In this document: piece by piece, positions 19,568 to 61,900 of the stretch | Layout of the letters: each line of letters begins with the position of its first letter | Numbering within the stretch: the first letter of the stretch is position 1 | DNA from: Mesostigma viride | Taxonomy: Eukaryota; Streptophyta; Mesostigmatophyceae; Mesostigmatales; Mesostigmataceae | NCBI GenBank assembly: GCA_009746045.1 | Contig: RPFO01000065.1 | Coordinates: 9,387,128 to 9,451,127, forward strand | Length of the DNA: 64,000 nucleotides | Direction of reading: 5' to 3' | The notes under the pieces: model-generated | Database searches by the model: none | Told to the model about the DNA's origin: nothing | Seen by the model: the letters and a program-made list of their open reading frames with translations, nothing else | Made by a program: the position numbers and the translations under genes

Positions 19568-19575
19568 CATCGAAT

Positions 19576-22470: not shown

Positions 22471-22513
<43 letters not shown>

Positions 22514-41543: not shown

Positions 41544-42264
41544 TGTAACGACTAAAAATGTTGTGTTTGCAACAGCCTCAGTATCAACATTGGTGTGAAA
41601 AGATCTTTATACCTGGGTTGGAGTCGCGACAGATAACTTCACGTCCAGAGAAGCAATGAAGATGGATCTTCAACAGTTAAGGGAATGAGTCCCCACCCTT
41701 GTTAGACACAACAGACAAGTTATATCCAAGTCGACTATCTGTTGAAGTTATAGTTGACTTTTAGCAAGGGTTGTTTGATTGATGAAACAAGGAAACCCTT
41801 GAATTACACCATAGCTTTAGCTCTCACGTACGCAGACATGCACGACCTCCACCAACAGGATAAAAGTCATCGTGCATGCAGAGTCGGCTCAATCCTAACC
41901 CGAAAGGACCAATCAGATGTGAAGATCACTCAAGGTAAGATCCAGCTAAGGTTGTGGATCACTTACCTTGAGTGATCCACAACACAACACAAGGCCAGCA
42001 CTACAGAATCTCCGTGACCTGGAACCAGATCCCCCAGGTACAACAGTCTTAAAGAGAATCTATGACTGGTTGAACTAAACCATGCAAAGTACCCCACGTG
42101 GATCAGGCCACGACCAATGAGGGTAGAACAATAATTCGACAGATCTCAGCAGGCCCAATATCAATCCTACGTCGAAGCCTCCTAACTTTCCAAATAATTG
42201 TCCCCAAGAACTCATAATAAGATCAACAGTAGGAAAACTTTGGATGTAACATTTGGTTGTTACA
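41544..42264 (-). repeat. 5' LTR of the LARD-like element
   Basis: 721 bases. Compared with the 3' LTR it carries a small hairpin-forming insertion near 41,942-41,980 ('ttgtggatcacttacc' and its inverse). Confidence 0.9.
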
Positions 42265-42471: not shown

Positions 42472-43412
42472 GAGTGCTGTGGCTGTGATGAATGGCCAGA
42501 AGCCTCTCAAGCCTCCTCAGTGCATGTGGGACAGGAAGAGCTAGACAAGTGGTTGGAGGAATCAATGATATGGAGCTGGTAGCCTGCTCTGTAGATCCCA
42601 CTGTCAACCTTGTGGAGGTATTCCACACTTCCACGGCTAATAGGGATTCCAGTGAGCGTGTGAGGGACAAGACCAGGACAGCAGTCAAGGACAAGCTGAC
42701 CTGGGGTCAGTTCCTACTAAGACTACGTCAGGAGTTCTCTGATAAGGTTCTCAACCTCACCAATCACTATAAGCTGAGCTATGACACCTTTGAGATCAAG
42801 GGTACAATAGCTGAGGAGCTGCAGCGGCTCCCACGCAACAGGGAGAAGGGGGCCAAGCAGGGCTGAACATGCTAACTGACAGAGCAGTGGCAGACTACTT
42901 CCTGGATCGCATGGGGCTGAGTGTGGATGGGAGGAATGCAGCTAGGATGTTTGCTGATCAGACAGATGGGTCGTGGCCAGCCTTGCAAAAGGTTACTTTG
43001 AACATACGCCCATCTGATGCTGCTTGCAAGGCAATCCAGGTCACTGGTGCCTCTTCAGCCTCCGCTAACCAGGTCCATGGTGATGCTCAGGTGGGCATGG
43101 GGCCCAGGCAGACGATCCCAGGCCTATAGTAGGCGTCAGAGGGCTAACAGACGCAGGCAGAATGGTAACCAAGGTGGCAAGGGCCAGCAGCAGGGATCCA
43201 AAGGCAAGGGTCAGCAGCAGGCTGGGGGTCACCGAGGTGGTCAGCAGAACAAGGGTGGCCAAGGGCAAGGCAAGAGCCAGGGCCAGGGCACCCAGGCCAG
43301 TCAGAGCAGCCAGAACCAGGATGGTCAGAGGAAGGCTACTGCTGGGAAGGATGACAAGTGCTTTGGCTGTGGCAGGACAGGTCATTGGCGACGTGACTGC
43401 CCAGACTACTAG
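42472..43412 (+). pseudogene. Copia gag with CCHC zinc knuckle
   Basis: Pieces in changing frames: MNGQKPLKPPQCMWDR near 42,490, then ELVACSVDPTVNLVE ... LTWGQFLLRLRQEFSD. A stop follows at about 42,864, then AVADYFLDRMGLSVDGRNAA. A Gln/Gly/Lys-rich tail ends with the knuckle CFGCGRTGHWRRDC (C-x2-C-x4-H-x4-C) and stop at 43,412. Frameshifts near 42,540, 42,866 and 43,020-43,130 make it non-functional. The knuckle lies 9 bases before the target duplication of the inserted gypsy-like element. Confidence 0.7.
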
Positions 43413-43424
43413 GCCAAGTCTGCT

Positions 43425-43563
43425 TGTCGCGTCTGCGTGCCACAATCTCCGGCGCACCGATGGCGGCTGGCCACTCAGCTTTGGTAAAACCCAAATGAGC
43501 TGAGCTGACGCGCCTGCCTTAACTGCATGCCCTGTGGGGTGGGCGAGGACTTGTCCCATGATT
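43425..43563 (-). repeat. Split direct repeat B2 (3' end of the gypsy-DNMT element)
   Basis: 139 bases ending (minus strand) in GACGCGACA at the TGCT target duplication. Second copy of B1. Confidence 0.9.
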
Positions 43564-44821
43564 AATGAAAAGAGGGCTCTCAGCCGAGGACAAGGAACTG
43601 TCCCTCGTGCCTGATGTCCACCTTATTGATCCCCTTGTGTACCGTCGCGTGCCGCGTTTGAATATCCTTGCTGGGGCGTTAGCTAAACGCTCCAACTACT
43701 CTAATTGCGACAATATGATGGTGCAAGAGGATGCTTTTGCCTCCCCTGCTATAGGACAATGCTTTCACAACACACACTTTGCACAGTCTGATGATGAAGC
43801 CGCACATGCGGAATTTATTCAATGAGAAAGTTAATACAATTACAACACGTTGATAGTCTCAATATCGATGCACTCCATGCTCACGAGCCCGCAGTTAGGC
43901 AGCGCTCCATGACATGCTACCGGCCTTGCTCCCAAGGAAAGGGAGAAACACGAAGGCCACTAACGAGAGACTCGAAGAGACTACACGCTGCGTGAGAGTC
44001 CTCTTCGACTATGAACCAAACCATTCGTCATGCCACACGCATGACACACGCCACACTTGTCAGTCCAGCCAGGAATGCCAAAACTATCTTGCTGCCTGAA
44101 CCATGCAAATAGAAACCGCATTCCAGTTGCCGTCCTGGCTTTCTACCACACATGCCAACAAAAGCAGGAAGGCATCCCAACAAATCTAAATTGCTACCCT
44201 GTTGCCGATCTCATCTCCTAGAGGCTCCGGCATTTCTGTCCCCGGGAATGTCCGACATTGAGTCACGTCCACCAAGGTCGAAGCATAATATCCTTCAGAC
44301 AATCTGCACGCTCACACCTTGCGTGTGAGTGGCCCAGCAACCATTGCGTCTAATCGTTCCTTTCTAGAAGAAATCCCTTTGTAGGGCTGCCAGCGATTTC
44401 GCATTCATTCCAGCGATCTGGCTCTGCACCGCAAATTGTCCTTTTCCATTTTCTGTCCAGTCCTCATAACGTTGACCCGCTATTCTATACACCACAAAGA
44501 CACCTGGCCTGTCAATAGCCTCGGCGCTGTTGAAGTCCAGCAGTCCAGCTCCAGCTCCAGCTGTCCACTAACACGCGTATGATCCTCTCGACGCTGCGCA
44601 CTTGTGCTGCCGTCCGCTCAAGTCAGTGCTGCGCGCCCAGCTGTGCCTGGCCCGGCGCGCGCGCACGTACACTTTCGTCCGCTCTTATGCTGCAAGTGCT
44701 AGTGTCCCCCCCCCGGTCACTAGCCTTTGTCGCAAATGCGTAGAAAACAAATTCCTTGCGCACGTCACCGGTCTTGTGCATAGTGGGCGCCCGGCGGATG
44801 ACATAGCTCGCGTCCGTGACA
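43564..44821 (-). repeat. Split direct repeat A2
   Basis: 1258 bases, second copy of A1. It runs directly into B2 with no internal sequence between them. Confidence 0.9.
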
Positions 44822-44823
44822 GC

Positions 44824-44962
44824 TGTCGCGTCTGCGTGCCACAATCTCCGGCGCACCGATGGCGGCTGGCCACTCAGCTTTGGTAAAACCCAAATGAGCT
44901 GAGCTGACGCGCCTGCCTTAACTGCATGCCCTGTGGGGCGGGCGAGGACTTGTCCCATGATT
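44824..44962 (-). repeat. Split direct repeat B1
   Basis: 139 bases directly downstream of the polypurine tract (minus strand), differing from B2 at a single base. Its end GCGACA, the dinucleotide GC and the start of A2 (TGTCACGG) form the palindrome-like GACAGCTGTC. Confidence 0.9.
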
Positions 44963-44974
44963 CCCCCCCTCGCT
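44963..44974 (-). other. Polypurine tract of the gypsy-DNMT element
   Basis: On the minus strand GCGAGGGGGGG directly precedes B1, so plus-strand DNA synthesis would be expected to start at B1 rather than at the TGTC end of A2. Confidence 0.65.
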
Positions 44975-44988
44975 GGCGACCGGCCCCA

Positions 44989-46314
44989 TCACGAAGACAG
45001 CGATCGTACCAAGACAAGGGCAGCGGTGACCGCAGTCAAGCTGCGGGAGGTAAACTGCGCAGCGGTGCACACTGGACAAAACCAATTCCCCTCCGGAATG
45101 CTGGTGACCACTGGCTGCAAACACTGCATGTGCCAACCACAGTTACACTGATCACACAATAACATGGACTCCGCCTGATCGACCCGGTGACAAACCTGAC
45201 ACTGGGCGTCCTTGACTCGGCGAGATGTGTGCGGTTGGAGGTCGTGGACCAAATTGGGCAGCGAGCAGGGACTGAGATTGCTGAGGTTGTCTGTCGTACG
45301 GCTCCCGTCGGCGCCCTCCAAAATTGCCACTCCCGATGGTTTGATAGCCACAATGCGCAAAATGGTGGGCCCTGCCTCCACATCCAAAGTGTGCTTCAGC
45401 TGAGTGCGCAGGAAAACATACTGCCCTGGCCTAAACCGCAGCTGGCGAGCCATGTATGCGCCCCCCCGGCGCTGAGCGTAGCGCAGGGAGTCCCTGTGCT
45501 GAGCAATGAACAAGTTGTTCATCGCGATGGGCATGACCTTCTTAAAAGTCTCTGCCCTGGCCAACACCTCAACCAAAAATTGCTGAGCGTTGTCGAAGGC
45601 CATGGGTTCGGGGTGCGCAACCTGTGCCTCCGTAGGCAAAAGAGGATTACGCCCGAACAGAAGGAAATACGGGGAGAAGGTAGCGAGAGACTCTTGGGGA
45701 GACATGCGATAACCCATGGCAATCCATGCCAACTCGCGATCCCACCTGGCCGACTCCGGCACCTGCAGGCTCCACTTGCGCAGCGCCTGCTTGACGGTCT
45801 GCACCAATCTCTCAGCCAAACCATTGGCCTGAGGATGCTCCCGAGAGGTGCGACGGTGATCAATAAGACATCCATCCAGCAACTCCTGGAACTCACCCCT
45901 GAACTCACCACCCTGGTCCGTGACTACCTCCGCGGGAGCCCCAAACCTGGTTATGATGTCCGCAAAATGCTTCGCTGTGGTAGCGGCATGCTTGTCAGCA
46001 ATGGGGATCAACTCAACCCATTTGCTAAAGCTCTCCACGCATACCATGACATAGAGGTTGCCGTCAGGGCTCTCCTGAAAAGGCCCGCACAGATCGACGT
46101 GCCAGCGATAAAACAAGCCCTTGATGGGAAGCGACATCAGCTCCTTGGCACCATGATCTGCGCTAAAGTTAGCCTTGGTTCGAGCACACGGGACACAGCT
46201 GGCCACTACCTGGGCCACCGTGTGTCGCATGTTATTCCACCAATATATTCCACCAATATATTCCACCAATGGTCCGTACGAGGCTGAGCGTGCGATTGCC
46301 ACCCAAGTGACCAT
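44989..46314 (-). CDS. DDE integrase with C-terminal PHD finger
   Basis: 441 codons. CVPCARTKANF is the Cys pair of the H2C2 finger. The catalytic core has D in WHVDLCGPF, D in VVTDQGGEF and E in HPQANGLAERLVQTVK. An SH3-like region (RFRPGQYVFLRT ... GPTILRIVAIKPSG) follows. At about residues 373-418 is a complete C4HC3 PHD finger: CQVC, LLCDQC, GWHMQC and WFCPVC. PHD fingers read histone-tail modifications. In this position it could replace the chromodomain found in chromoviruses and guide integration (inference). The reading frame is intact from the finger to the end; the beginning is separated from RNase H by the 13-base repeat. Confidence 0.9.
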   Translation of the reverse strand: MVTWVAIARSASYGPLVEYIGGIYWWNNMRHTVAQVVASCVPCARTKANFSADHGAKELMSLPIKGLFYRWHVDLCGPFQESPDGNLYVMVCVESFSKWVELIPIADKHAATTAKHFADIITRFGAPAEVVTDQGGEFRGEFQELLDGCLIDHRRTSREHPQANGLAERLVQTVKQALRKWSLQVPESARWDRELAWIAMGYRMSPQESLATFSPYFLLFGRNPLLPTEAQVAHPEPMAFDNAQQFLVEVLARAETFKKVMPIAMNNLFIAQHRDSLRYAQRRGGAYMARQLRFRPGQYVFLRTQLKHTLDVEAGPTILRIVAIKPSGVAILEGADGSRTTDNLSNLSPCSLPNLVHDLQPHTSRRVKDAQCQVCHRVDQAESMLLCDQCNCGWHMQCLQPVVTSIPEGNWFCPVCTAAQFTSRSLTAVTAALVLVRSLSS

Positions 46315-47290
46315 ACCGCTCGTGGTACGCCTGCACTATAGCAACGCGCTTGTCAGGCGGTGGGACGACCACCCTACGCTTGCCCAACAGCTTGTACAAA
46401 ACCCCATCTTCCCAACCATAGGTTGCAGCCCTGTGCTGCACCCTGTTCAACTCCGTTGCCTTCTGAGCAGGAGTCCAATCGACTGGAGTAGGAGTCAAGA
46501 TAGCACCCTGCACTTGCTCCAACACTCGACCATCTAGCCAGATATCAGCGGTGTAGCAATCAGCAAGAGAGCTACGCGCTAAGAGAGCCTGCACAGCGAT
46601 CAGCTGCTGCAGAGAAGGATCAATGTCAAAGGACAGAGACCTACCCTCTTCCATAGCGCACACAGCTTTGGATGGCGTGAATGGAGACGGCCGCACCGGG
46701 TCGTCGCTGGTGCCGAAGTCCGCCACAGAGTACTCGATACTGCGCCACCATGCCTCCTCCTCATCGTCGGCCGCATACCCAGCAGCGTTCACAAAGACCA
46801 CAGAACCAGACGAGCCCTCGGCACCCATGGCCCGGGCTCCAGTGTGGTCAACAGTGGTAGGCATGGCGTATCGGGATAGCACATCGGCGTTGACATGGTC
46901 CTTGCCGGCCCGATGCACAATGGTCATGTGGGACTCCTGGATAATCATGGCCCATCGGGCGAGCTTACCCGTCAGGTTGGTGTTGGTCATTAGCCACTGA
47001 AGCGGCTGGTGATCTGTCACCAGAGTAAACACGCGCCCAAATAAATACGGGCGAAAGTGCTTGATGGCCCACACCACAGCCAGTGCCTCCCCCTCAGAGG
47101 AAGAATACCGGCTCTCCGCTGGGTTGTTGCTGCGACTAGCATAAGCAATAACGTGCTCGCGCCCATCACCATCCTTTTGCGCAATGGATGTATTACCCGA
47201 TGCAGCGTGGGCTCGCCGGCCAGCACGGTGCTGGTCAGCAGGGCGGTCATGAGAAGGATAGTCCACACCTGTCGCAGACGCCACCCCCAT
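46232..47290 (-). pseudogene. Ty3/gypsy RNase H (N-truncated) and integrase zinc-binding start
   Basis: REHVIAYASRSNNPAESRYS begins the recognisable RNase H, with the catalytic Glu in SSSEGEALAVVWAI, Asp in VTDHQPLQWL and Asp in DHVNADVLSR. The first catalytic Asp (usually TD.S) and all of reverse transcriptase are missing upstream. After an acidic/variable linker, the integrase H2C2 zinc-binding domain starts with HERYGHLGGNRTL. The frame ends because a 13-base unit ('aatatattccacc') is tandemly multiplied at 46,236-46,271, pushing the remaining integrase into another frame. Confidence 0.8.
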
Positions 47291-47464
47291 GCTGATGAAG
47301 TCCCCGGCGCTGCAGGGCGCTTCAGTTTGGCGGCGCGCGCCTCAACCTGCTGAGGCGGATTGGCTGGGGACGCCCCCCCAGACTGGCGCACGGCAACCGA
47401 GGCAAGCAGCACATACCCGACCTGCAACACCGACATAGCCTGGCCTATCAAAGACCAGCGCTCA
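47290..47464 (-). CDS. DNA methyltransferase motif X in the +1 frame
   Basis: The main frame ends GARA-stop at 47,464-47,462 (codons GCG TGA). Skipping one base at the stop gives ERWSLIGQAMSVLQVGYVLL, a good match to motif X of C5 methyltransferases (R..(L/I)GNAV....V), which completes the fold. The frame stays open past 47,290 (QVEARAAKLKRPAAPGT follows) but no further homology is seen. It could be reached by programmed +1 frameshifting at GCG-UGA or could mark a one-base mutation. Confidence 0.6.
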
Positions 47465-50400
47465 CGCTCGAGCACCGGCGCCCGGCAGCGCCGAGGCCCC
47501 GACATGAAAACCCATGCTGGCCTCACGAAATTCTGCGGGTGGCTGCACCAACAGACCGGTGGTAGTGTCCCAAACGAGACCCTTACCCCGATCACGGTAT
47601 GCTGTCGACCCTTGGTAACTGACCAGGGCCGGCAGTGCACACATGGGGCTCCCGACCCGGTTGACGCGTGCATACGGTGGGCGATCCTCGCTATCCACCT
47701 TCTGCGTGACTAGGTGGGAAGGCAATGCTACCTCCGCAGACACACTCGGATGCTGCCTTGCTACGGCCCCCAAGACCACCTGCACACCGGTCGCACACGC
47801 CACGTTGGTCCAATAGGCACGCAAACGATGCGTGAGCCCACCCAGCCCTGCGTTGTCACACACGATGGGCTCCCCCAGGAGTGCCACGATAGTAGCCCAG
47901 TCCTCCCGCACCGCCTGATGTGGGCTGTCACCCGCCACAACGTTCTCAAACAGATACGCAGGCGGATGGGGCTGACGCGACTGCAACAGTCCCACCACAC
48001 GCAACAGTTCCCAGAACAGCGCGCTACGCGGATCGGCTAGCCCCCGCCCTTGCCCTGCCTGGCTCAGGCCCTGGCACTCCCAACCCGCGATTACCAAGTC
48101 GATGGCATGATGCCTGCGCAACAACTGCTGCACCTGCACCTCACCGATGGCTCGGATATCTTGAGGACATTCCCCAAACGGGTCACGCCATGCTGATGGC
48201 GGAAACTGCGCGGGATACTCTCGCGACAACACGCCACAGTGACTGAAGTACACCTGACGCGCCTTGTGCGATGGCTCTACCGCGATGAGTTTACGGCACA
48301 CGCCGCCTGCGGCCAAAAAGCCTGCAATGCCCCCTCCGATCCCCGCAAACAGTTCCAACACTACCGCACCCTTGGCAAAATCAGGGGCCTGCGGTAAGAT
48401 TGCAGCAGAAAAATTACCTTGGGCCTCCGAGACACCCGGTTGCACCAAAGTGAGGCCATGGCTGGCCATCTGAGGAATGGTGACGACGGCTTCAGTCACC
48501 CGCTTGCGCATAGCCAGCTGCCGCGTGGACGTCACAGCATCCAGCGACCACTGCGTGCGCATCTTGGCAATGCTCGCCGTTGGCTGAGGCAGCACCGTCC
48601 GATGCTTGTCCCACGCCGATGAGCCCGCCGCCCGTACCTCCACCATGCTGACCTCCACCACGCCCGCAGCCGCTGAAGGGTTGAGGCGTGCAGCCCCGGC
48701 TGAAGAACTGAAGCATGAGACCGGCACACTGGCCCGCTTCAGGCCAGCCCCATCCCAATCAGGGATGTAAGATGCCTCCTCCGCCCTATAGTCCACCTGA
48801 ACCATGGCGCGAGCAAGGACATCCACCCCGAGTAGTGCGGAATATCCACACTTGTTGACCACCAGCGCATACGCGGACACGGTGGTCATGCTAGAGGCGC
48901 GCAACGGATTGAAAATCACGTTGACTTTAACCGCCGTCATAGCGTACGGCTTACTAGCCGGACCCTGCCAACCTGACACAGACACGGGGCTTTCCACTAA
49001 GCCACCGTTCTCGTAGGTCAGGTTCAGCATGGTGGCCAAGTCTGTGCTGATGACTAGCGGCTGAGCACCGCTATCAAGCTTGACTGCGCCAACCAACGGA
49101 CATGTCACCATGTCGCTCCATACATCTCCACAGGCTCCAACTGCTTGGAACGCTATGGACGGCTCACCATTGGGGTATGGAACCACCGTGGGAACCTGGG
49201 GAACTGCACTAGTGCGCTGCTGGCTACTTGTGCTGACCACTCCCGCTTGCACCACGGGCACTGCGGCTTCTACCGGCTGACGCCCGTAGGTGACGGACTC
49301 AGAATTGCGCAAGGTGCGCACATCATGCCCATCTGCGAACAACTGGATCTCGGACACAACCGACCCCAGCCACTCAACCCCCTTCTGCCCGAAGGTGTCG
49401 ACCACCTGCCGTGCTGAAAACATGGGTACGTCCACAATGAACGGCATTGGGTACACAGGCGCCAATCGCCTACGCTGCTCCAGCCCAGCAGGGTTCGCAT
49501 GCTCAAAAGCAGATTGCACCCCAGCCAGCGGCATGGAAAAGGACGCGGGCAACTGCCCGGCAGGCAACATGGGTGCCTGCTGAAAAGAAAGCGGGCTGCG
49601 TGCCTGCTTGCCTTTGGTAGCCTCCGCAGCGTTGATCTCGACGTCACCCGGCATGGGCGCCCAGAATGGGTCCTCCCGGTACACCGTCGCGAATTGGTTG
49701 GGGGGCGCCGTCGCCTCCTCACCATGCTTGATGGCAGCCACCTGGGCTTCCATCGAGTCGGTCTTGCCCGCCATCTCGGCGAAGTGGACCGTCTTGATGC
49801 CCGCGGCTGGACACTTGTTCATCAGGTGCCACTTCGTGTCTGCCCCATGCGGCTTCGTGCAGCGGCTTGGACACTCGCGACTAAGGTGCCCATCCTTGTC
49901 GCAAAGGTAACATTTACCGCGTGACGGGGTGGGTGCGCCCAGCGCGCCTTGCACGCCCTGCGCCTCCTGAGTCCCATCCGATGACGGCGGACGACCGCCT
50001 CCGCCTCGACCACCACCGCGACCCCGACCACCGTAGCCACTGCCGCCGCCACCACGACTGACACCGCCGCTGCCACCCTGACCGCCACCGCCGCTGCCCC
50101 CGTGACCGGCGTTGCCACCACCCTGAGTGCCGACATATTCACCGCGCCCCGCACCAGGCAGCCGCTGGCCACCCTTGACCGCGATGGCCTTCTCCATCTC
50201 AGCCATCTTCTTGCGCATCTCAGCCAGCTCAGACGAGATACCCTTCTCGCCTTCCGCACGCTTCCTGAGCAGCCGCTTGAATGCTGCACAGAGAGTCACC
50301 AAAGTCCACTCCCCACCGGGCGGCTCCGGAAGATCGATGGCCAGCAGGGGCACTGCACTCCGCCATAACCGGCAAGCCTTGGTCTGCGTATAATCAGGCA

Positions 50401-51940
50401 CTTTGCCCGCAAACGCGAGAAGCCGGTCAAGGGAGAAAGCCGGATCCTCACCCTCGGCGACGGTGAACGCTCCATTCCATTCCGCGATGGCCTTGACGTG
50501 CTCAACTGGGTACTCCAGCCGCAGTTGCTGCCACAGCTGCTCTGCCGGGTCGACATCGAAGATGATCGAGTCGAGATCCGGTGTGCCCATGTCCGTGAGC
50601 GCAAACCATATGTCCGTGCGATGACATCGGTCCACGAGCGCTCGGTAATGCTGGACCAAAACCTGGACCTTCTTCTTGGTCAGGTCATGGAAAAAAAGGT
50701 GAATAAAATCCATCACCATCTCATGGCGAAGAGGATACCCCGAGGCATAACGATAAGTGTTACAATGAGCTCGGAAGAGCTCATAGGCTTCCTCTAAAGT
50801 CGCACCCGTGCCTGCTGAGGTGAACTTCTCGCGAAGCTCCACCTTGGGCAGCGATGGCACACGAGTGGATTCGCCATGCACGCCGTACGGCATGCGGTGG
50901 GGTCGCTGGACGTCGTCGCCCTCACCCCATGGTATGCTGGCTACCTCCCGATCGACTTGGCCCCAGCCGAAGTCTGACCGAGTGCCGCCAAGCCTGGGCC
51001 GCCCTGCGGTGCCACCCAACGGCGTTGCTGCCGCCGTCATGGGTGGCCGACCTGTGCTAAACAAGCCACCTGATGCTCCCCCCCTGGGGGCTGCACCATA
51101 CCCGCCGCGCCACGATAACGTGCCTTGGTTGGGTGCCCGTAGGTTCCCCCCCAGCGTATAAGATGCGTCGGCAGTCGACCGGGTGCCTACCCGACCGACG
51201 TTCGGCTGCAGCTCGTCATCCTGCGCCATTTCCCCGTCGCCCCGCCGTTGACCGCTTGGTCCGACGCGTGGCTGACTGGGCTCAACGTTGCGTAGTGGAC
51301 CTGTCCCACTGCGCTCTTCGTCGAAGTGTCCGCGTTGGTCGCGCAGCGCCTCATGTCGCCGCGCTTCCTCGGCAGCGGCCTCCTCGTCGGCAGCCTGCCT
51401 GGCCTCGGCGTCGCGTTGGGCCGCAGCTTGGCAGGCGCGTGCAGCTTCCGTGGTTGCCTCCGCCTGCCGCCGTTGCTCAGCGCGCTCCGTAGCACGCCTC
51501 GCTTCAGCCGTAGATTCCGCGCGCTCCAAAGCAAGTCGCACAGTTTCTTCAACAAGCGTCGCCTGTTGCGATAACTGCGTCGCTTGCTGAGCTCGGAGTG
51601 CCGCCAGCTCTGCCGCTTGCTCTTGCAGCAGGCGCAGCACTTGGGTAAGAGCACCACCGTCCCCTGCCGAAGAAAGGGAAGGCGCTCCATTACCTAACAA
51701 AGCGGTGTCCGCACTAGTGCCGAGACGACCGCTGGGCGGGTCAGTTGCTTGACCGCCCGTAGCTGCCGGCGCTGACCCACCACTGCCTGATGCTGTGGGG
51801 TCAGTTCCTGACATGTTGATGGTGGTATCGACCCTGGAGAGCTCCTGCCCGTCGGTGTCGACGCCCGTGTTGGCACAGCCTGCGTGGCTTGCCAAAAACG
51901 CTGTGACCGACCTAGTGTGATATGACATAAACTGCCACAA
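47462..51940 (-). CDS. gag - zinc knuckle - protease - C5-cytosine DNA methyltransferase polyprotein
   Basis: A 1492-codon frame; a second in-frame ATG at residue 43 (51,814) may be the real start. In order: a low-complexity N-terminus; an Ala/Arg/Glu/Gln coiled coil (~95-210); a gag-like region (~395-590); a Gly-rich linker; and a CCHC knuckle CYLCDKDGHLSREC (~677). A retroviral-type protease follows with active-site DSGA (~952) and LLGVDVLARA. The methyltransferase has motif I LFAGIGGG (~1197), motif IV GWECQGLSQAG (~1285) with the catalytic Cys but Glu in place of the usual Pro, motif VI FENV (~1327), motif VIII HRLRAYW (~1368) and a REASMGFHVG element (~1475). Motif X continues in the +1 frame. 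The expected product would methylate cytosine in DNA, perhaps of the element itself (inference). Confidence 0.9.
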   Translation of the reverse strand: MWQFMSYHTRSVTAFLASHAGCANTGVDTDGQELSRVDTTINMSGTDPTASGSGGSAPAATGGQATDPPSGRLGTSADTALLGNGAPSLSSAGDGGALTQVLRLLQEQAAELAALRAQQATQLSQQATLVEETVRLALERAESTAEARRATERAEQRRQAEATTEAARACQAAAQRDAEARQAADEEAAAEEARRHEALRDQRGHFDEERSGTGPLRNVEPSQPRVGPSGQRRGDGEMAQDDELQPNVGRVGTRSTADASYTLGGNLRAPNQGTLSWRGGYGAAPRGGASGGLFSTGRPPMTAAATPLGGTAGRPRLGGTRSDFGWGQVDREVASIPWGEGDDVQRPHRMPYGVHGESTRVPSLPKVELREKFTSAGTGATLEEAYELFRAHCNTYRYASGYPLRHEMVMDFIHLFFHDLTKKKVQVLVQHYRALVDRCHRTDIWFALTDMGTPDLDSIIFDVDPAEQLWQQLRLEYPVEHVKAIAEWNGAFTVAEGEDPAFSLDRLLAFAGKVPDYTQTKACRLWRSAVPLLAIDLPEPPGGEWTLVTLCAAFKRLLRKRAEGEKGISSELAEMRKKMAEMEKAIAVKGGQRLPGAGRGEYVGTQGGGNAGHGGSGGGGQGGSGGVSRGGGGSGYGGRGRGGGRGGGGRPPSSDGTQEAQGVQGALGAPTPSRGKCYLCDKDGHLSRECPSRCTKPHGADTKWHLMNKCPAAGIKTVHFAEMAGKTDSMEAQVAAIKHGEEATAPPNQFATVYREDPFWAPMPGDVEINAAEATKGKQARSPLSFQQAPMLPAGQLPASFSMPLAGVQSAFEHANPAGLEQRRRLAPVYPMPFIVDVPMFSARQVVDTFGQKGVEWLGSVVSEIQLFADGHDVRTLRNSESVTYGRQPVEAAVPVVQAGVVSTSSQQRTSAVPQVPTVVPYPNGEPSIAFQAVGACGDVWSDMVTCPLVGAVKLDSGAQPLVISTDLATMLNLTYENGGLVESPVSVSGWQGPASKPYAMTAVKVNVIFNPLRASSMTTVSAYALVVNKCGYSALLGVDVLARAMVQVDYRAEEASYIPDWDGAGLKRASVPVSCFSSSAGAARLNPSAAAGVVEVSMVEVRAAGSSAWDKHRTVLPQPTASIAKMRTQWSLDAVTSTRQLAMRKRVTEAVVTIPQMASHGLTLVQPGVSEAQGNFSAAILPQAPDFAKGAVVLELFAGIGGGIAGFLAAGGVCRKLIAVEPSHKARQVYFSHCGVLSREYPAQFPPSAWRDPFGECPQDIRAIGEVQVQQLLRRHHAIDLVIAGWECQGLSQAGQGRGLADPRSALFWELLRVVGLLQSRQPHPPAYLFENVVAGDSPHQAVREDWATIVALLGEPIVCDNAGLGGLTHRLRAYWTNVACATGVQVVLGAVARQHPSVSAEVALPSHLVTQKVDSEDRPPYARVNRVGSPMCALPALVSYQGSTAYRDRGKGLVWDTTTGLLVQPPAEFREASMGFHVGASALPGAGARA

Positions 51941-52086
51941 CCACTACCAAGTAGCAACGGTCTAATCTGAAAGACTTAATGGTTGATCAGGCCACTATGT
52001 GTGCTAGTCTTCCCCAGAAAACTGCACACCGTCTCTCTTTGCTGAAATGAAAATGTTCCTTTGCAGATGGAGCTAGTCTCTTCGAG
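51941..52086 (-). other. 5' untranslated leader of the gypsy-DNMT element
   Basis: 146 bases lie between repeat A1 and the first ATG. The sequence directly after A1 (minus strand CTCGAAGAGACTAGC) does not start with TGG, so no standard tRNA primer-binding site is evident. This differs from the other two LTR elements in the window. Confidence 0.5.
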
Positions 52087-53337
52087 TAATGAAAAGAGGG
52101 CTCTCAGCCGAGGACAAGGAACTGTCCCTCGTGCCTGATGACCACCTTCTTGATCCCCTTGTGTACCGTCGCGTGCCGCGTTTGAATATCCTTGCTGGGG
52201 CGTTAGCTAGACGCTCCAACTACTCTAATTGCGACAATATGATGGTGCAAGAGGTGCTTTTGCCTCCCCTGCTATAGAACAATGCTTTCACAACACACAC
52301 TTTGCACAGTCTGATGATGAAGCCGCACATGCGGAATTTATTGAGAAAGTTAATACAATTACAACACGTTGATAGTCTCAATATCGATGCACTCCATGCT
52401 CACGAGCCCGCAGTTAGGCAGCGCTCCATGACATGCTACCGGCCTTGCTCCCAAGGAAAGGGAGAAACACGAAGGCCACTAACGAGAGACTCGAAGAGAC
52501 TACACGCTGCGTGAGAGTCCTCTTCGACTATGAACCAAACCATTCGTCATGCCACACGCATGACACACGCCACACTTGTCAGTCCAGCCAGGAATGCCAA
52601 AACTATCTTGCTGCCTGAACCATGCAAATAGAAACCGCATTCCAGTTGCCGTCCTGGCTTTCTACCACACATGCCAACAAAAGCAGGAAGGCATCCCGAC
52701 AAATCTAAATTGCTACCCTGTTGCCGATCTCATCTCCTAGAGGCTCCGGCATTTCTGTCCCTGGGAATGTCCGCATTGAGTCACGTCCACCAAGGTCGAA
52801 GCATAATATCCTTCAGACAATCTGCACGCTCACACCTTGCGTGTGAGTGGCCCAGCAAACATTGCGTCTAATCGTTCCTTTCTAGAAGAAATCCCTTTGT
52901 AGGGCTGCCAGCGATTTCGCATTCATTCCAGCGATCTGGCTCCGCACCGCAAATTGTCCTTTTCCATTTTCTGTCCAGTCCTCATAACGTTGACCCGCTA
53001 TTCTACACCACAAAGACACCTGGCCTGTCAATAGCCTCGGCGCTGTTGAAGTCCAGCAGTCCAGCTCCAGCTCCAGCTGTCCACTAACACGCGTATGATC
53101 CTCTCGACGCTGCGCACTTGTGCTGCCGTCCGCTCAAGTCAGTGCTGCGCGCCCAGCTGTGCCTGGCCCGGCGCGCGCGCACGTACACTTTCGTCCGCTC
53201 TTATGCTGCAAGTGCTAGTGTCCCCCCCCCGGTCACTAGCCTTTGTCGCAAATGCGTAGAAAACAAATTCCTTGCGCACGTCACCGGTCTTGTGCATAGT
53301 GGGCGCCCGGCGGATGACATAGCTCGCGTCCGTGACA
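52087..53337 (-). repeat. Split direct repeat A1 (5' end of the gypsy-DNMT element)
   Basis: 1251 bases. On the minus strand it begins TGTCACGGACG and ends TTTTCATTA. It is about 99% identical to A2. Unlike an ordinary 5' LTR, it is followed directly by the internal region and lacks the 139-base B part. Confidence 0.9.
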
Positions 53338-53341
53338 TGCT

Positions 53342-54320
53342 GGAGCAGGCTCTGGCCAGGTGGGTAGCCATGATGTGTTGTCCCCTGTAAATAATCAAAC
53401 ACCCCAGGTGGGACAGACATCAGTTGTATGTACTAACGGGGGTGTCCCTCTTGTGCAGCAGCAATTAAGGGATTGGGAATGATGAGGTGCTTCCACTAAA
53501 TGATTGCAATGATGCTGCTGCAGCAGTGGAATTCACTGTACCTGTGGCAGGTGCAGGGTCTCCAGTGGCTGGGGTTGGCTCTGGGAGTCAAGCCACCAGG
53601 CTGGAAGGATCGCTCAGCTAGCTGCTACCGTGGGAACCAGGACTGGCTCTTGGAGCCAAGCATCCTTTGATGTGGTCCCCAGGTGGAGCAAGAGAACAGC
53701 AGGTGGGTCGTGCTTTCCCAAGCACACAGTCTTTGTCACGTTCCTCAGACTCTGTGCAGCCAGGCTGACAGGGGACTGAGCTATGCTCAGGCTGGAAACA
53801 CGTTACACCATATCTTTGGCCACTCTAACTAAGCAGGCAGAGCTGTTTGCTTGTCGAAGATTGGCAAGGAGCTTTTGCTTGAGGCCTGCAGTGCAGCTAG
53901 CTGCTCACAATTGTGTATGTCAGGAGAATCAGATTCGCCTCCCACAGTTCCATGCCAGAGAGCCTGCTATAGAGAGCAGGGGGATATCCAGGTGTACATC
54001 CAGCATATCAGGGCGATGTATCTGTTGGTGGGGGTGGATAGGTTTAGCAGATATAGATTGCTGACCATTCTACCTGGCATGCATGCAGGAGCATCAGCTG
54101 TTGATGGGTCTCCAGTCTTTGTTGCCTGGCTTTGGGGTGTACACCAAAGTGCAAGCTGACTTGCAGTTTGACTGCTTGCTCAAGCTGGCTGACCAGCTTC
54201 CATGTAAGCTGGTAGTGGTCCCTGGAGAGAGCCATGGACAGCAGGGAGCTAAAGAGAGATCTGTACGTGAAGTAAAAACATTGGTGCTAGCAGCTAAGAG
54301 TGTGCAGGCTGTTGTGGCAT
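53342..54320 (+). pseudogene. Copia protease/integrase relic
   Basis: In broken frames: the zinc-binding/GAG-pre-integrase region (SKIGKELLLEACSAAS and a later Cys pair) at about 53,850-53,930. The integrase start follows (MYLLVGVDRFSRYRLLTI) at about 54,013-54,070, and the end of the core (GQQGAKERSVREVKTLVLAA) at about 54,240-54,300. The protease before it cannot be recognised. It is interrupted at 54,322 by inverted-unit repeats. Confidence 0.6.
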
Positions 54321-54321
54321 C

Positions 54322-54868
54322 AGTTAGGTTAAATAGTGCCAGAACCTTTTGCCGCCTGAGGCAAATCGGGCCGGAACACTATTTTGCCCGGAAGAACCAT
54401 TTCCCAGCACCCAAGTTAATTCCGACGGCCCGATTTGCCTCAGGCGGCAAAACGTTCCGGCACTATTTAACCTAACTAAACCCTGGCCTCGTGGAGGGGG
54501 AGTCGAATAGATCTGGAGACAACCGCCTGGGCTGCTGGCACGCAAATGATTTTATATTGCGCCGGAACTTCCTCTGGCAGGTTTCAAACCCCTGACCTCC
54601 AAGGTGCACAGGTTTTAGTTAGGTTAAATAGTGCCGGAACCTTTTGCCGCCTGAGGCAAATCGCGGGCCGGAACACTATTTTGCCCGGAAGAACCACTTC
54701 CGAGCACCCAAGTTAATTCGGTCTATTCGACTCCCCTTCCACGAGGCCAGGTTTTAGTTAGGTTAAATAGTGCCGGAACCTTTTGCCGCCTCAGTGAGGC
54801 AAAATGGGCCGGAACACTACTTTGCCCGGAAGAACCACTTCCGAGCACCCAAGTTAATTCGGCCGAAA
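54322..54868. mobile_element. Foldback-type inverted-unit repeats inside copia
   Basis: Starts AGTTAGGTTAAATAGTGCCA; three related blocks follow: an inverted pair (54,322-54,477) and two plus-oriented units (54,616-54,720 and 54,757-54,868). The unit is the same as at 29,441-30,099. Divergence is greater than in that composite. Confidence 0.7.
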
Positions 54869-54986
54869 TCATTTCCAGTGATAAACTAGCCATCCAGGAC
54901 CTGGGTGGTGTTGCTCTGAATCATTTCAAAATTCCCCTTCAATCACTTCTTCAAACCAACATTGCTTCTGTAAATTTTGCTTAATT

Positions 54987-55478
54987 TTGCTACCCCCAAG
55001 TATGCTCCAGGACAAGAACCCTGTGTGGCAGATTTGGTTCACAATCAAAAACTTCATCCCTCCTCGATCCTTTGGATTGGGCAAGCATGATGTAGAAAAA
55101 ATGTTGCCCCTTTCTTATTATGAACTGATAGAGCAAGACTGTCGCACACACATAGGTTTCCTAAAATGGGTGGAGGCCTTCAACAAGGCCATGGAAGAAT
55201 GGGTAGTGCCAGATCCACTTAGTCCATCTCACACTCCACCTGTTACCCCTATTGACAAAAAGCCTGCAGGGTGCAAGCACTTGCGCCTGAAGTTTGTGTG
55301 TAAACATAAGCCAGCAGCAGATGGGTCAGTCATTTTTCATGCCAGACCTTGTGTGACAGAGTTCAAGGGGACCACTGATCTGACAGAAGCAGAGCTGTAC
55401 ACGCCAGGCATTCAGCAAACCTCTCTAAAAATCTTGCTGTCTGTCTTTGTGGGTCACCTCAATGCAGGGGATTGTTAG
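54987..55478 (+). pseudogene. Copia reverse transcriptase, N-terminal piece
   Basis: HLRLKFVCKHKPAADGSV, HARPCVTEFKGTTDLTEAEL and TPGIQQTSLKILLSVFVGHL match the beginning of copia RT ('K.RLV.KG....G.DY..TF.PV....S.R.LL.LA'). The frame stops at 55,478, before the YVDD region, and nothing of RNase H follows. Truncated. Confidence 0.65.
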
Positions 55479-56224
55479 CGCTCCCACGGTCCTAAATTTA
55501 GGACTTTGTCCTAATTTGTCCTAGAGGTCACTATAACCAAGGTACCGGGGGGGGGGGGGTCACTATATGGACCGTACCCCATGTGGACCGTACCCGGCAT
55601 GATGTACCCGACCCGTGGTACCGGCACATGGTACCCGGATTCCGTACCCGGGTACCGGGTATATAATGGCGGGAAAGTAGGTACCTCGACCAAAAATATA
55701 ACCGATTTTGGAGCGAAAAAGTGGGTGCGGGAATGAAGTGAGGTGGATATGGCGACCTGACAATCGTGGCCGGCGTTTTCACGTGCGTTTATCATTTCGG
55801 GCGCCCAGTAGCAAAAACGAAAGGTTGTTAGTTATGCTTAAAGGCTGTGAATATTTTCTGCGCAAGTTTTTATGTGTAGCGCTGTAGCACAGCGGCACAA
55901 CACAAGTGGGTCGCAGATCGCCTGCTCGGGGAGGGTCGATTTTGGCACAAACATGTTAGTGTATTAGCAATGGTGGTGCGAATCAAGCCAGGAAATTTTT
56001 GGGGACGATTTTGACTATAGTCTGGAGTTTAGAAACGGAGTATTTGACATGGGAGCGCCTGGGCCGTGATATTCTTGCCCGATTTCCATTGTCGACCATG
56101 TTTTAGGGGCGTTCAGGCTGGGCATGCAGCGAGCGCACCTTATAGGTCTTCACTTTCGGTATTTCTTGGACCTAGAACGCAGCACAAGCATGGTTTATAT
56201 CCACTAGGAACTCGGCTTTGAGAA

Positions 56225-56530
56225 TGGGTGAGAAATGGTGAGAAAAAGGGTGAGAAAGGTGAGAAAAAGGGTGAGAAATGGGTGAGAATGGGTGAGAAAG
56301 GTGAGAAAAAAGGGTGGGAATGGGGTGAGAATGGGTGAGAAAACACGTTTCTCACCCGGGTGAGATTGCCCCAAAAAAGGTGAAAAAAGGGGAAAAACGT
56401 GAGAAAAATCTCAAAAAACAGGACGTGAGAAAAGTGAGAAAAACGGGAGGTGTGAACGTGAGAAAAGTGAGAAAATCAGGACGTGAGAAAAGTGAGAAAA
56501 GTGAGAAAAACAGGACGTGAGAAAAGTGAG
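56225..56530 (+). repeat. Irregular GTGAGAAA-type repeat
   Basis: About 300 purine-rich bases built from 'gtgagaaaa', 'gggtgagaa' and similar words. The opposite strand gives a false Phe/Ser/Leu-rich protein. Confidence 0.9.
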
Positions 56531-56705
56531 AAAGCACAGCGCTGAGAAACACAGGCATAATACAATTAATATGCTGGCAGCAGACACATGCATGCAGTGC
56601 CAGTAACAACCGCTGTTCAAAACAGCACGAACAATCATGATTTTTAATTTTGAATAATTTTAATATTTACAGCTGCAATAGCCCGTTGATTCAACTATTC
56701 AACAC

Positions 56706-56805
56706 TGTTATGGCGTTATGTACATCTTCGGCATTCAATGCCTGTTCAACACATGCAGTCTGTTATGGCGTTATGACATCTTCGGCATTCAATGCCTTTT
56801 ATCAA
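56706..56805 (+). repeat. Tandem duplication (~53 bases)
   Basis: Two copies of 'ctgttatggcgttatg' + 'catcttcggcattcaatgcc', directly 3' of the minus-strand gene ending at 56,824. Confidence 0.8.
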
Positions 56806-56823
56806 GTACTATATGGCAGCTAG

Positions 56824-58882
56824 CTAACAAAGCGGGTCGCTCGACAGGGCGTCACATGCTGACTTGAAAGTGGGACCGCTTGCATTTAACTCTCGTGGTC
56901 CCTGCAAGAAATCAAGAAAACCGACACAATATATGCAAGAGGAAAAGAAATCAGATCCTTGACATAGACGTAAGCGTTCTACAAGGATCTTGAGCTCAGC
57001 ACCACCTAACAATCCATGCAGCAAATGTGTATGGCAATCAAACCAAGCAACATACAATTCCACACATCCATGCATGCAAGAGGGGGAAAAAAAAACAGGC
57101 CCTTGCAGATAAACATCTATATACCTTCAAATGCCAAAAACATGACACCTATAATTCCCCCCAAAATGAAAGCAGTGCAGCTAACCTTGGATGGTGATGC
57201 AACGCTCGACGCCGATGACATGGTATCGTCATTGCCATCCTCAATGTCAGTCCTCCTACCACGAGCTTCCTCCTGGGCGGTCCAGTTTACCTGCAAGTAA
57301 GAGGCATACAAGGAAATCAACTAAATCATGTTCAGGAAAACTTTGCAGAAAAAAGATGCTATCAATAAATGGCGATTTTTATAACGGAACAAAATTTCAG
57401 AAATCATAGGGGAAAAAACAACAAAACCTTATCAGCCAACATAATTTACCATGATTACAATCATTACATGAACACCAATATGGCATGCATGCAAGATGCA
57501 AACAACTTATTTTTAGGCGCGACTAAAAAGGTATACTTACCGATGTCATCCCCGTTGCCGTCGAGATGTCGATAGTCGCAGTACCCTGCCGGGCGCGAAC
57601 AAGGGCCTTTTGTTTTGCTAGGAGGGCTTCTAGCCTGGCCAGTTCTCGCTCTGCCTCCTTCAAATCCGGCTCGAGTTCCATATCCACGTCCCTGAATTCC
57701 AGTTTAGCAGGCGCAACCGACAGCACCGTTGGCGTGGCGACCTCCGCCTTGGCCTCAGTGCGCTGCTGCCGGCGTGGCGACCTCCGCCTTGGCCTGCGCC
57801 GCTGCCGGCGTGGCGACCTCCGCCTTGGCCTGCGCCGCTGCCGGCGTGGCGACCTCCTCCTTGGCCTGCGCCGCCGCCGCCGTGGCAACCTCCGCCTTGG
57901 CTTTCTCCACAGCAGGCGTGGTGACTACCACCTTTGTCCCCGCCTTTGCCTCGCTGCCCTGCACCGCAGCCCCAGCCACAACTCCCTAAGTTCGCACGCT
58001 TCACAGGCACCTGCTGCGCGGACTCCTCCACCTGTCTCTTTTTCACCGGATCCTGCATGTTGTTGGGGTCCACAGAGGCAGCAGCCTTCACGGCTGCTTG
58101 GGACCGCTTGCATTCGAGGACTCGGTACGCCGTCATGTCCTCGGGGTACACTCCATCAAGAGCCACCCAAGCACATATTTCCTTGCTGTTCTCGTCTTGG
58201 GGGAGGTCGTTGAGGGCGAGCTCATAAGTCTTGCTTGCGCCGTCATGCTCGACAAACAGGATTGAGTGTGGGATCTTCCTTTTCTTGTTGATGGAGCAGA
58301 CAAACTCCCAGATCCACTCATCCTGGTCCTTCTGAGGGTCCTCCAGGAGGAAACGCACGGCGATGAACAGCCCGATTTTCGGCTGGGCATCCTTGCGGAC
58401 GGTGGCCACGCGGCTGAGCTGCGGGAGAAAGTGAGACAGGCCCATGTCGAGGGGGGGACCGCATTCCTTCTTGATTTGGGGCTCCCGTTCCTTCTTGATT
58501 TGGGGCTCCCGTTTCTTTGGCGGCACATCAGCTTTCTTCTCGACTTGGTTCTTCTGCGTCTTTGGAATGAAGCGGCCAACGACCTCGGCTGCCGGGGCAG
58601 CGGCCTGGGCTGCCGGGGCCGAGCGGCCTGGGCTGCCGGGGCAGCGGCCTGGGCTGCCGGGGCAGCGGCCTTGGCTGCCGGCGCCGCGGCCTTGGCTGCC
58701 GGCGCCGCGGTCTTGGCTGCCGGGGCCGCGGCCTTGGCTGCCGGGGCCGCGGTCTTGGCTGCCCCGGCAGCGGCCTTGGCTGCCGGCGCCGCGGTTTCTG
58801 CGGCGGGGGGAGCCGACGTGGCGGAGGGGGAAGCAGCCACGGCAAGGACAGGCTTCCTTGGTGGCACAGGGGGCGGCGCCAT
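56824..58882 (-). CDS. Split gene, unrecognised protein with Ala/Pro/Lys-rich N-terminus and coiled coil
   Basis: Proposed exons (minus): 58,882-57,541, 57,290-57,186 and 56,901-56,824. Introns start GTAAGT and GTTAGC and end CAG, both phase 0. The start is ATGGCGCCGCC, the end CDALSSDPLC-stop. The protein has an (AAPAAK)n region resembling histone H1 tails (~25-90), then a Lys-rich stretch. A globular part follows (FLPQLSRVATVRKDAQPKIG, then WIWEFVCSINKKRK). Then come (AEVATPAAAQAK)n repeats and a coiled coil AERELARLEALLAKQKALV. The first exon needs three frame corrections: two extra bases near 58,620, one near 57,975 and a four-base excess near 57,760. Two of these lie in repeats. Either a pseudogene or sequence errors. 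Function unknown; a chromatin role is only suggested by composition. Confidence 0.6.
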
Positions 58883-58965
58883 GATATATGTAGAGGACCG
58901 ACTGTTCTGAAGCTGAGGCCGCCTTTGCAGATTGTTCAAGTGCAGCTAGTCTGGCGCGGAGGACT

Positions 58966-61900
58966 TCAGGCGATTTCCTGCTGCTGGGGCGTCAGGCCTT
59001 CTGTGTTCTCGACCTGCGCATGCCACAATTTCGGGGAAACGGACACAACCAACTAGACACAAAAGTTAGAGGACGTGATTTCTTGAGCTATTTGCTCATC
59101 TGACATGGGGGCGCTTGAAAATGGCAAAGGCAAAGCGGAGCCCGCCGCCTTTAGGCGGGCGTAACAGGTTGGTGGGGTGCTGGCATATGCATAAATAAAT
59201 GGGGTGGGGTGCTGGCATGCATAAATGAATGGTGTGGGGTGCTGGCATGCATAAATGAATGGGGTGGGGTGCTGGCATGCATAAATAAATGGGGTGGGGT
59301 GCTGGCATGCATAAATAAATGGGGTGGGGTGCTGGCATGCATAAATAAATGGGGTGCATGGGGTGCTGGCATGCATAAATAAATGGGGTGGGGTACGTGC
59401 TGGCATGCATTACAAGTATTAAATTTTTTTTCTAGGCTTGTCAGTCACTGTAGCATTTCTTAACCAGATTTATAGAAGGGCGCGTGAATACCCACGGTTA
59501 AAAAAGAAAATGTTCACGAGCATGGAGAGTGGAAAGCAACCATCTTTGCCGACGACATACAGTAAGCTAGCAGCCAGAATGCTTTCTTGCGGTAACATAC
59601 CTTGGCCGGGGCTTGTGGCTCGAGGTGAGTCTTGTCTTGCTTGGGATTCGCCATCTTGGGCTTTGGCACCCCGACCTTCACCTACGATCGTGCGAGTGAT
59701 ACGACGATTGTGGGGAAACAAAGACAAGCAAATCAATTTGTTTAAAATACATGAATGGGTTGAATGTCATTTATTTATGAATTTATTACGAGAGACATGG
59801 CATGAGAGACGATGCTTTAGGTATGGCCCGCATCGTATTTTTATAGGCAGAAAAGAGGTACTGCCAGATGGCAAACAACCAAAGAACCATCGCCAGATTC
59901 TAGAATATTGTTTGTATGATTGCCAAATGTCAAACTGTCAAGACAACCGTTTGTATGATTGCCAGATGTCATCTGTAAAATCAACCCTGATATAATGCAT
60001 GGAATCTCATCCAGTAAAGTGACACCTGTCCATGGAATAAAGAATCACTGTCCATGTAACGTAGTGACATAGCTGCTGGCATACTAGTTGAGAACCGTAC
60101 ACTATAACAAAAAACACACACAACATAGATTAATATCTTGCTAAGTACTGATTCAAAAAAGTCAGTAAAAATATCAGCACGTAGCTAATCAAACACACTC
60201 CAAGAAATCACAAACAACACACAAAAGACCCACCTGCCCAGAATAGAAATAATTCAGGCATGTGGCCACTGGGAATAATTAATTAATTCCCAAACACCCC
60301 CCTTGGCAACTGCCTAAAGAGGGAAACACTCTAGTAGTGCTAGTACTATGTCCCAGTTTATATTCACCTATCAAACTAGTAACCATTTCCTAGCGGTCAT
60401 TGCACTCAGGGCTAAGGACCTTTACAACTAGGACTAGGGCAGGTGATTGCTACGGGCCACCCCCCTCAAACACATGCCCCGTAGTGAGCGGGCAATAGGC
60501 TTTAAGGCAGAAGCATACCGGTACAAGGTGGTTTTTGGCTGACCACGAACCAAAAAGACTAGTCACGACGGGACTAGTGCACTACGTAGACTACCTACGC
60601 CGAGGTGGCCACGACGGGGCCACTATATGCAGCGGGTCACGACGGGACAACGCTGAAAAGTGTGCTTTTTGACATAGGGCTTAGCAACAAAACCCGAAGA
60701 GATGCTTTTTTACGGTTCAGCAATAACCGACGAAAAAATGGAAAACCGGCTGAAAAATTTAAAATGCAAATGTGGACGGCATTTCCGGTGCCTCCATTGT
60801 CGAGGTGCCCATGAGAGGATTGGTTTCCGTAAAATGCACGGCGCCGCCGTTGGGCCGGGGGCGACGCTCCGGATACTTGGTCCAGCAGCGCTCGGCACGG
60901 TGGCCAGGGCGCTTGCAATGGCTGCACACCGGGCGAGTTGCAAATGCTTGGCCCGGTGGGAGCTCGCCTTCGTCGCGAGAAGTCGCAGCCGAGCCGGCGG
61001 GCGCAGTCGAACCGGCTGGGCGGTCCTTGAGCTGGTCAGCGGCTTGGAGGAGGAGGACGCGTGCGTCAGTGAGAGAAATGTCATCACGCACAAAAACTGC
61101 AGCGACAAGTGGACGATATTTGGCCGGGAGGCCATCCAGCAGATTCTGGACGAATTCAGTCTCAGGCAGCGTCCCCCCCAGCTTTAAGTACTCGCGGTAG
61201 CGTAGTTCATGTTCCGTCAAGTACAGGCCCATGTCGCCGTCCTCAGCCAGCTCGCAGCGGTGTATGTAGCTGACGACGGAGCTCCTGCTTGTGAGACCGG
61301 GTATGCCGTGGCTGGTCGTACACGGCATCCACGAGCTTGAACGCCACGCTGCCATGACGAGGCTCAGCTTGATCAGCAACGGTAAGCGCCTGACCGTCCA
61401 GGCGCGAACAAAGTGCAGCAAAAAGAATGCGGTCTTGACGGTCGTTGACGTCGTCACCGTGCAGCACACTGAGCATGGTGAATGCTCCCGCGACAGATTT
61501 GAAGCGAATTTTAAAAGCAGGGTAGTCGGCCAGTCTGGTACCGTTGAAAATAGGAATTCCGCTGACGGCACTAATGAGGGCCGTCTCCTTGAGTGCGTTC
61601 GCCATTTACGACGGATAAAATTTTAGACGCCAGGTAGGGTTTCAAGAGACTCTCGATTTCCGATAAGCTTGACGATTCGAATCGAAATACAGCTCCTTGC
61701 CACCGGATAATGATTTTGGCAGGAGGAACGTAAACAGACCTCAGAGAACTCTCAGGATAAAATCCTGGTTTCTCGAATTGCTCGTAGCCAACGGGATACG
61801 CAATCACAGGTTCTTCGGCGACAATGACGCCTTGTTCCGGCTGTCCGAAAAAGTCTTCGAGATTGTCAAGTACATCAAAGTCCCAAGGACGATTGACAAA

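Follow-up and report, generated by a model that had tools for sequence, protein, structure and literature searches.

A minus-strand element in a 64,000-nucleotide stretch of the Mesostigma viride genome (contig RPFO01000065.1; the whole stretch is referred to here as the window) raises the question of how direct repeats split in the manner of PAT and DIRS elements come to be carried by a gypsy-like retrotransposon with a DDE integrase. An earlier note on this DNA had proposed integration from a circular, two-repeat intermediate cut at an internal attachment site. Analysis of the element and its relatives suggests that the integrase inserts copies via a site within the repeats instead of using the reverse-transcribed ends. 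We consider it probable that the element is a Ty3/gypsy-type retrotransposon whose integrase acts at this internal site.

Structure of the element in the window

The element runs on the minus strand from 53337 to 43425 in the order A1-PBS-gag/DNMT-RNaseH-IN/PHD-PPT-B1-GC-A2-B2. The A1 repeat (52087-53337, 1251 bp) starts with the outer left end TGTC and is adjoined by the PBS, CTCGAAGAGACTA (52074-52086). At the other side of the internal region the polypurine tract (PPT) GAGGGGGGGA (44962-44971), the longest purine run of the element, ends at B1 (44824-44961, 138 bp). A GC spacer (44822-44823) separates B1 from A2 (43563-44821, 1259 bp), which extends from TGTC to the A2|B2 joint CATTA|ATCATGG, and B2 (43425-43562, 138 bp) closes the element with the outer right end GACA. 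Between the A repeats there are 8 substitutions and 8 gap columns over 1259, and between the B repeats 1 substitution in 138. Repeat homology breaks off precisely at TGTC (left) and at GACA (right), so the ends of the element are defined without recourse to the flanking duplication TGCT, which lies at 43421-43424 and 53338-53341 (plus strand). These coordinates bear out the repeat order, outer ends, target duplication and PPT position given in the earlier note, as well as the inner B1/A2 junction GACA-GC-TGTC, of which B-GC-A has 245 exact occurrences in the genome. This palindrome, centred on the GC spacer, is the proposed internal attachment site; its symmetry past 10 bp is modest, with 10/15 in 15-nt arms, a value equalled at 17 of 9881 positions. 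An AATAAA lies about 255 nt upstream of the A2|B2 joint. Rfam and tRNA searches of the window gave no match.

The element sits just past the stop of a plus-strand ORF (43017-43412) that is presumably gag-like, by its motif. When the insertion site was rejoined, one frame stayed open for 46 codons further, but a stop comes before the joint, and the plus-strand frames from 53338 to 62000 contained no Pfam domain; the host reading frame is therefore weak support. Direct repeats of about 720 bp, 96% identical, lie at 31347-32050 and 41544-42264 and are possibly the LTRs of a retrotransposon that received the element.

Coding content and loss of the reverse transcriptase

The internal region contains three minus-strand ORFs with recognisable domains. 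The longest (47462-51940, 1492 aa) encodes gag with a zinc knuckle, a region that is presumably protease-like by its motif, and a C5 DNA methyltransferase with weak PDB sequence matches to the plant DRM and HhaI methyltransferases. The second (46232-47290) encodes RNase H and the start of an integrase zinc-binding domain that scored below the curated cut-off. The third (44989-46314) encodes an integrase with part of the H2C2 domain, an rve core and a C-terminal PHD finger, and its PDB sequence matches were to PFV and Ty3 integrase and to PHD fingers. Pfam searches of the three minus-strand frames of the element thus identified an rve-type integrase and no tyrosine recombinase family (E 0.001), in agreement with the DDE integrase claimed earlier. 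Where the RNase H ORF joins the integrase ORF and the frame changes, a 13-bp unit is repeated 2.9 times (46233-46270).

The methyltransferase in the gag/pol ORF and the missing reverse transcriptase core had not been mentioned in the earlier note. RVT_1 was absent from the three frames of the window copy; the corresponding stretch of a relative, L079, contained RVT_1 (97.7 bits) and a full RNase H. The distance from A|PBS to B-GC-A is 7260 in the window copy, compared with 8444 to 8496 in 13 of 16 pairs from other copies and shorter values in the remaining 3; the pairs were those on one contig and within 10 kb among the matches listed. Because of this shorter distance and the RVT_1 found at that place in a relative, we conclude that the window copy, which falls short of most close relatives by about 1.2 kb, has lost this sequence, including the reverse transcriptase core, at 47290-47470 (minus strand). 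The window element belongs to a common retrotransposon family, of which it is a damaged member. RNase H followed by an rve integrase in pol is the Ty3/gypsy (Metaviridae) order, and reverse transcriptase precedes RNase H in L079 but not in the window copy.

The split-repeat form recurs with fresh target duplications

The 440-Mb assembly holding the window was searched with exact patterns. The 245 exact B-GC-A junctions compare with 0 for a reversed-pattern control, and 59 loci fetched from them (100 were listed) were combined with the window into a census of 60. Two census pairs (L006/L118 and L121/L122) each have a common right flank and are probably not independent. Upstream of B-GC-A, the PPT was present at 57 of the 60 loci, B1 was truncated or absent at 2 and other sequence was found at 1 (L084). 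Downstream of A, the B joint had the normal length at 35 loci and was scarred at 11; the B of another family followed at 3 and the PBS at 2 (L008, L084), and 9 were truncated or reached a contig end. Nine right-end-only pieces outside the census all had joints of normal length.

Left ends were sought in 44 copies (26 + 17 + 1), and both ends were located in 23 (12 + 11 + 0). An exact 4-bp duplication flanked A1...B2 in 21 of these 23, or 22 of 24 with the window copy, compared with agreement at 4 bp in 2 of 506 mismatched pairs; flanking agreement at lengths of 3, 5 or 6 was found in none of the copies with both ends. A short duplication of fixed length is a Ty3/gypsy trait. Identical LTRs at both ends, another such trait, are not what the family has: A1 stands at one end and A2-B2 at the other. 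The two copies without a matching duplication (C998:1164220 and C224:3620205, the latter with a B2 of another type) count against insertion through an internal site. An ordinary A-B repeat joined to the PBS, searched as the exact B|PBS pattern, occurred 0 times in the genome.

Because 4-bp duplications flank 21 of the 23 copies and the window copy, A1...B2 is taken as the replicating form. The genome search that the earlier note had suggested therefore gave the recurrence at unrelated loci that it had envisaged, and the window copy is neither the sole permuted one, the structure being present at dozens of loci, nor accompanied by an ordinary LTR form with the exact B|PBS pattern. An ordinary A-B LTR that had lost a piece was rejected on the recurrent duplicated flanks and the B|PBS count. 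A rearranged or mis-assembled ordinary LTR element has next to no chance of being the explanation: the damage to the window copy alone was all that could be found in its favour, and for the family it is refuted by the junction census together with the recurrent copies in duplicated flanks.

A1/A2 identity reached 99.8% or more in 6 of 12 copies; the split-repeat form is therefore young and was inserted recently. A1 resembled its own A2 more than any other copy in 6 of 12 cases, equally in 4 and less in 2, the window among these; this comparison does not discriminate between models, and its row for C47 is unsafe, the A1 having been ended at a wrong, later PBS. No relatives were found in viral contigs or in prokaryote genome contigs, and no phage records with B were found. 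Four loci (L085, L097, L037, L100) contain other B-type sequences with the common ending GCAAACGCGACA; judged by this ending, they apparently belong to related families with a common attachment end that are sometimes joined to the A of the window family.

The PBS matches a segment inside the A repeat

The 13-nt PBS directly after A1 is the complement of TAGTCTCTTCGAG, located inside A at 52490-52502 in A1 and, in a second copy, at 43971-43983 in A2 (minus strand). Other internal positions with an anchored 13-nt match to A numbered 0 of 7079. A predicted fold of the stretch from this segment to 40 nt past the PBS start pairs the two. Of 13 left pieces from other copies, all but C47 had the 13-nt PBS (12 of 13), and 11 had the 13-nt primer segment. 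The two without this segment are C667, whose piece begins downstream of it, and C1, whose A1 does not contain that stretch; the case of C1 counts against the internal-site model. The bases 3' of the PBS fall into two types among copies.

These matches suggest priming from the element's own RNA 5' region, as in Tf1, with a predicted RNA 5' end at TAGTCTCTTCGAG. The standard retroviral scheme has the PBS and PPT borders set the ends of the cDNA. Since the PBS adjoins A1 and the PPT adjoins B1, the predicted cDNA is B-A-int-B-A. Its predicted ends are unlike the ends at which copies are inserted, a difference that the earlier note had pointed out and that is supported by the PBS and PPT borders, the scarred A2|B2 joints described below and the B|PBS count of 0.

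Some A2|B2 joints bear scars

The A2|B2 joint is the exact meeting point of the A border, as set at the PBS, and the B border, as set at the PPT. Scars were found in 11 of 46 sampled A2|B2 joints compared with 1 of 57 (L115) for the same B start beside the PPT (Fisher P = 0.001). Scarred joints were scored by eye and entered by hand, and joints with substitutions only (e.g. L092, L101, L110) were scored as normal. One base had been gained in L069, L090 and L108, and the extra bases in L108 and L090 can be read as the PPT side; one or three bases had been lost in L070 and L098. The whole 13-nt PBS stands between A2 and B2 in L093, and about 130 nt of the internal 3' end together with the PPT in L096. 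The joint of L112 contains a B-type unit of another family, inverted, 89 bp long and complete to its GACA end with 1 mismatch. A2 is shortened at the joint in L113, L119 and L123; deletion at a later time might account for these scars, and L123 may represent a tandem unit that lost its interior. Omission of these three left 8 of 43 joints scarred (P = 0.005). All five scarred copies with both ends located (L069, L070, L108, L112, L119) have a perfect duplication.

The joining of reverse-transcription ends would leave just such traces at the joint, namely a PBS copy and PPT-side bases. Because the scars lie at the predicted meeting point of the cDNA ends, these ends appear to be joined by the cell, with the integrase acting at GACA-GC-TGTC. 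Two features of the joints count against the internal-site model: 35 of 46 are of normal length, which templated copying would also give, and three carry the B of another family. In such a DIRS-like route, a transcript from A1 to B2 would itself contain the joint, the internal B1-A2 would serve as a splint that restores the ends, and the joint would be copied and not made anew. The uniform length fits this route, the repeat layout is that of PAT elements (PMC4157794), and a published DIRS circle model uses internal copies (PMC3266345). We nevertheless hold it unlikely, as the joint falls on the PBS and PPT boundaries, shows more variation than this B start does next to the PPT, and in some copies holds a PBS copy or PPT-side bases.

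The PBS-side site appears to be the one that is cut

We lean, by no great distance from even chances, towards a route in which the retroviral-type integrase cuts the PBS-side palindrome of linear cDNA and inserts both resulting ends, and the host seals the ends made by reverse transcription. RNA would start at TAGTCTCTTCGAG in A1 and fold back onto the PBS beside A1 to prime minus-strand DNA, and plus-strand DNA would begin at the PPT beside B1. The resulting linear B-A-int-B-A would have one GACA-GC-TGTC palindrome inside each B-A repeat. Integrase, with GACAGCTGTC and not the reverse-transcribed ends as its putative substrate, would nick the PBS-side palindrome after CA on both strands, yielding two ordinary processed ends, one each on B and A, with a recessed CA and a 2-nt 5' overhang. 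Both would be inserted with a 4-bp stagger, and the cell would join the A end to the B start, producing the A2|B2 joint. The final structure has 4-bp duplications and a joint at the reverse-transcription borders, and a minority of copies bear end-joining scars there; the identity of the cutting enzyme and the order of joining relative to strand transfer are what we infer.

The same final structure and the same scars would result if the ends made by reverse transcription were first joined into a two-repeat circle, in which the integrase then cut one B-GC-A site for insertion. Circles with two LTRs have been described, and their junctions are precise in most cases (36 of 40 clones; PMC1180852). 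Such a circle would, however, offer two equivalent sites, and cutting at the other one would give A-B-A-int-B. The A of the window family stood upstream of the B1 start in 0 of 58 sampled junctions, 57 of which had the PPT there and one (L084) other sequence. The scarless pattern of TTA|B followed by GC-A had 4 matches in the genome, and 0 of 4 were preceded by the window family's A. In two of the four (L146, L147) two B starts lie head to head, an apparent end-joining product. In addition, a free B-type fragment, seen in one case (L112), is not a product of one cut in a circle. The circle is thus a possible but less probable intermediate, and of the earlier proposal the internal attachment site stands, whereas the second-site product that a circular intermediate would leave was not seen among the sampled junctions and pattern matches. 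As only the PBS-side site seems to be used, a symmetrical circle cut at random is argued against. We favour a cut in the PBS-side repeat while the cDNA is linear or still incomplete, since this repeat becomes double-stranded earlier in plus-strand synthesis.

A few loci have other arrangements. A 9450-bp unit (L084/L085), of which the ends were read, starts with B-GC-A|PBS and finishes with PPT|B-GC-A; its right neighbour is another family's B, and its left neighbour is other sequence, at a guess another family's A. This unit and the inverted B-type unit of L112, a single case each, fit linear cDNA and released B pieces. Contig C133 was rejected as a plain integrated linear cDNA, its right side being another family's B; the reading is limited to a unit with the ends of B-A-int-B-A between two foreign joins. 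At L007/L008 (contig C111) the arrangement is tandem-like, with junctions 9450 bp apart and PPT|B-GC-A|PBS at L008. Arrangements of this kind would fit insertion of a one-repeat circle (A-int-B) by homology into an existing solo A-B with its duplication, giving A-int-B-A-B. We consider this very improbable as the general origin of the structure: it leaves unexplained both how an A-B with TGTC...GACA ends arose and why joints are scarred with PBS and PPT sequence. A|PBS pairs about 9720 bp apart were seen on contigs C1566 and C1952.

Relation to known systems

The split-repeat gypsy layout is already in print and is not new. According to the legend of Fig. 4 in de Mendoza et al. 2018 (PMC5890265), which devotes a single sentence to the repeats, KnitGypsy-Dnmt3 of Klebsormidium nitens has repeats structured as in a DIRS element and gypsy domains. 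By this description the window family resembles it in the gypsy domain set, the C5 methyltransferase in the polyprotein and the DIRS-like repeats (PMC5890265). All three were found here, with the reverse transcriptase in the relative alone. The main text of PMC5890265 lacks the terms circular, target site and self-prim. Among the matches listed, literature on split repeats, self-priming and circle or junction integration contained no mechanism for a split-repeat gypsy element.

The order A1-int-B1-A2-B2 is shared with PAT (PMC4157794), and an internal copy of the end-to-end junction with PAT, DIRS and Ngaro elements (PMC4157794, PMC3266345). Unlike these, the window family has a DDE integrase, a 4-bp duplication, and a PBS and PPT at the repeat borders; the split direct repeats of PAT/DIRS elements are present, but neither their tyrosine recombinase nor their lack of a target duplication was found. 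Bacterial insertion sequences that form circles, IS911 and IS30 among them, have a DDE enzyme acting on abutted ends a few bases apart and do not use reverse transcription. The abutted ends of the window family, unlike theirs, are permanently encoded.

Self-priming has been described for plant Tcn1 and for Tf1/sushi elements (PMC6317226). The window family would resemble self-priming Tf1/sushi Ty3/gypsy elements in a PBS complementary to its own predicted RNA 5' region (PMC6317226), but differs from them in its split repeats and in the PHD finger found after its integrase core. Retroviral integrase cuts a palindromic LTR-LTR junction in vitro (PMC1180852, PMC1905944). The proposed cut resembles that of spumavirus integrase, a double-strand cut of a palindrome after CA that gives processed ends (PMC1180852). 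The spumavirus palindrome is the LTR-LTR joint made by circularisation (PMC1180852), whereas the window family has its palindrome within each repeat and its joint at another place. For avian retroviruses, integration via joined ends at an internal attachment site was put forward in the 1980s and later came into dispute (PMC1180852). In the window family, which has a high copy number, an internal site appears to be the usual route of insertion, and end-joining scars of the intermediate persist in the genome. This also suggests a way for split repeats to come about where no tyrosine recombinase is present, a point of relevance to the origin of PAT and DIRS elements. If the proposed route is true, every insertion holds a built-in record, a natural read-out, of host end joining.

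Other features of the window

Several repeats lie outside the element. A tandem repeat with a unit of about 1720 bp, 99.8% identical, occupies 14407-19569. Related clusters of direct and inverted repeats were found at 29435-30100 and 54301-54865, and a 559-bp direct repeat, 99.8% identical, at 59739-60297 and 61990-62548. A long plus-strand ORF at 22039-23784 is presumably sialyltransferase-like, by its motif.
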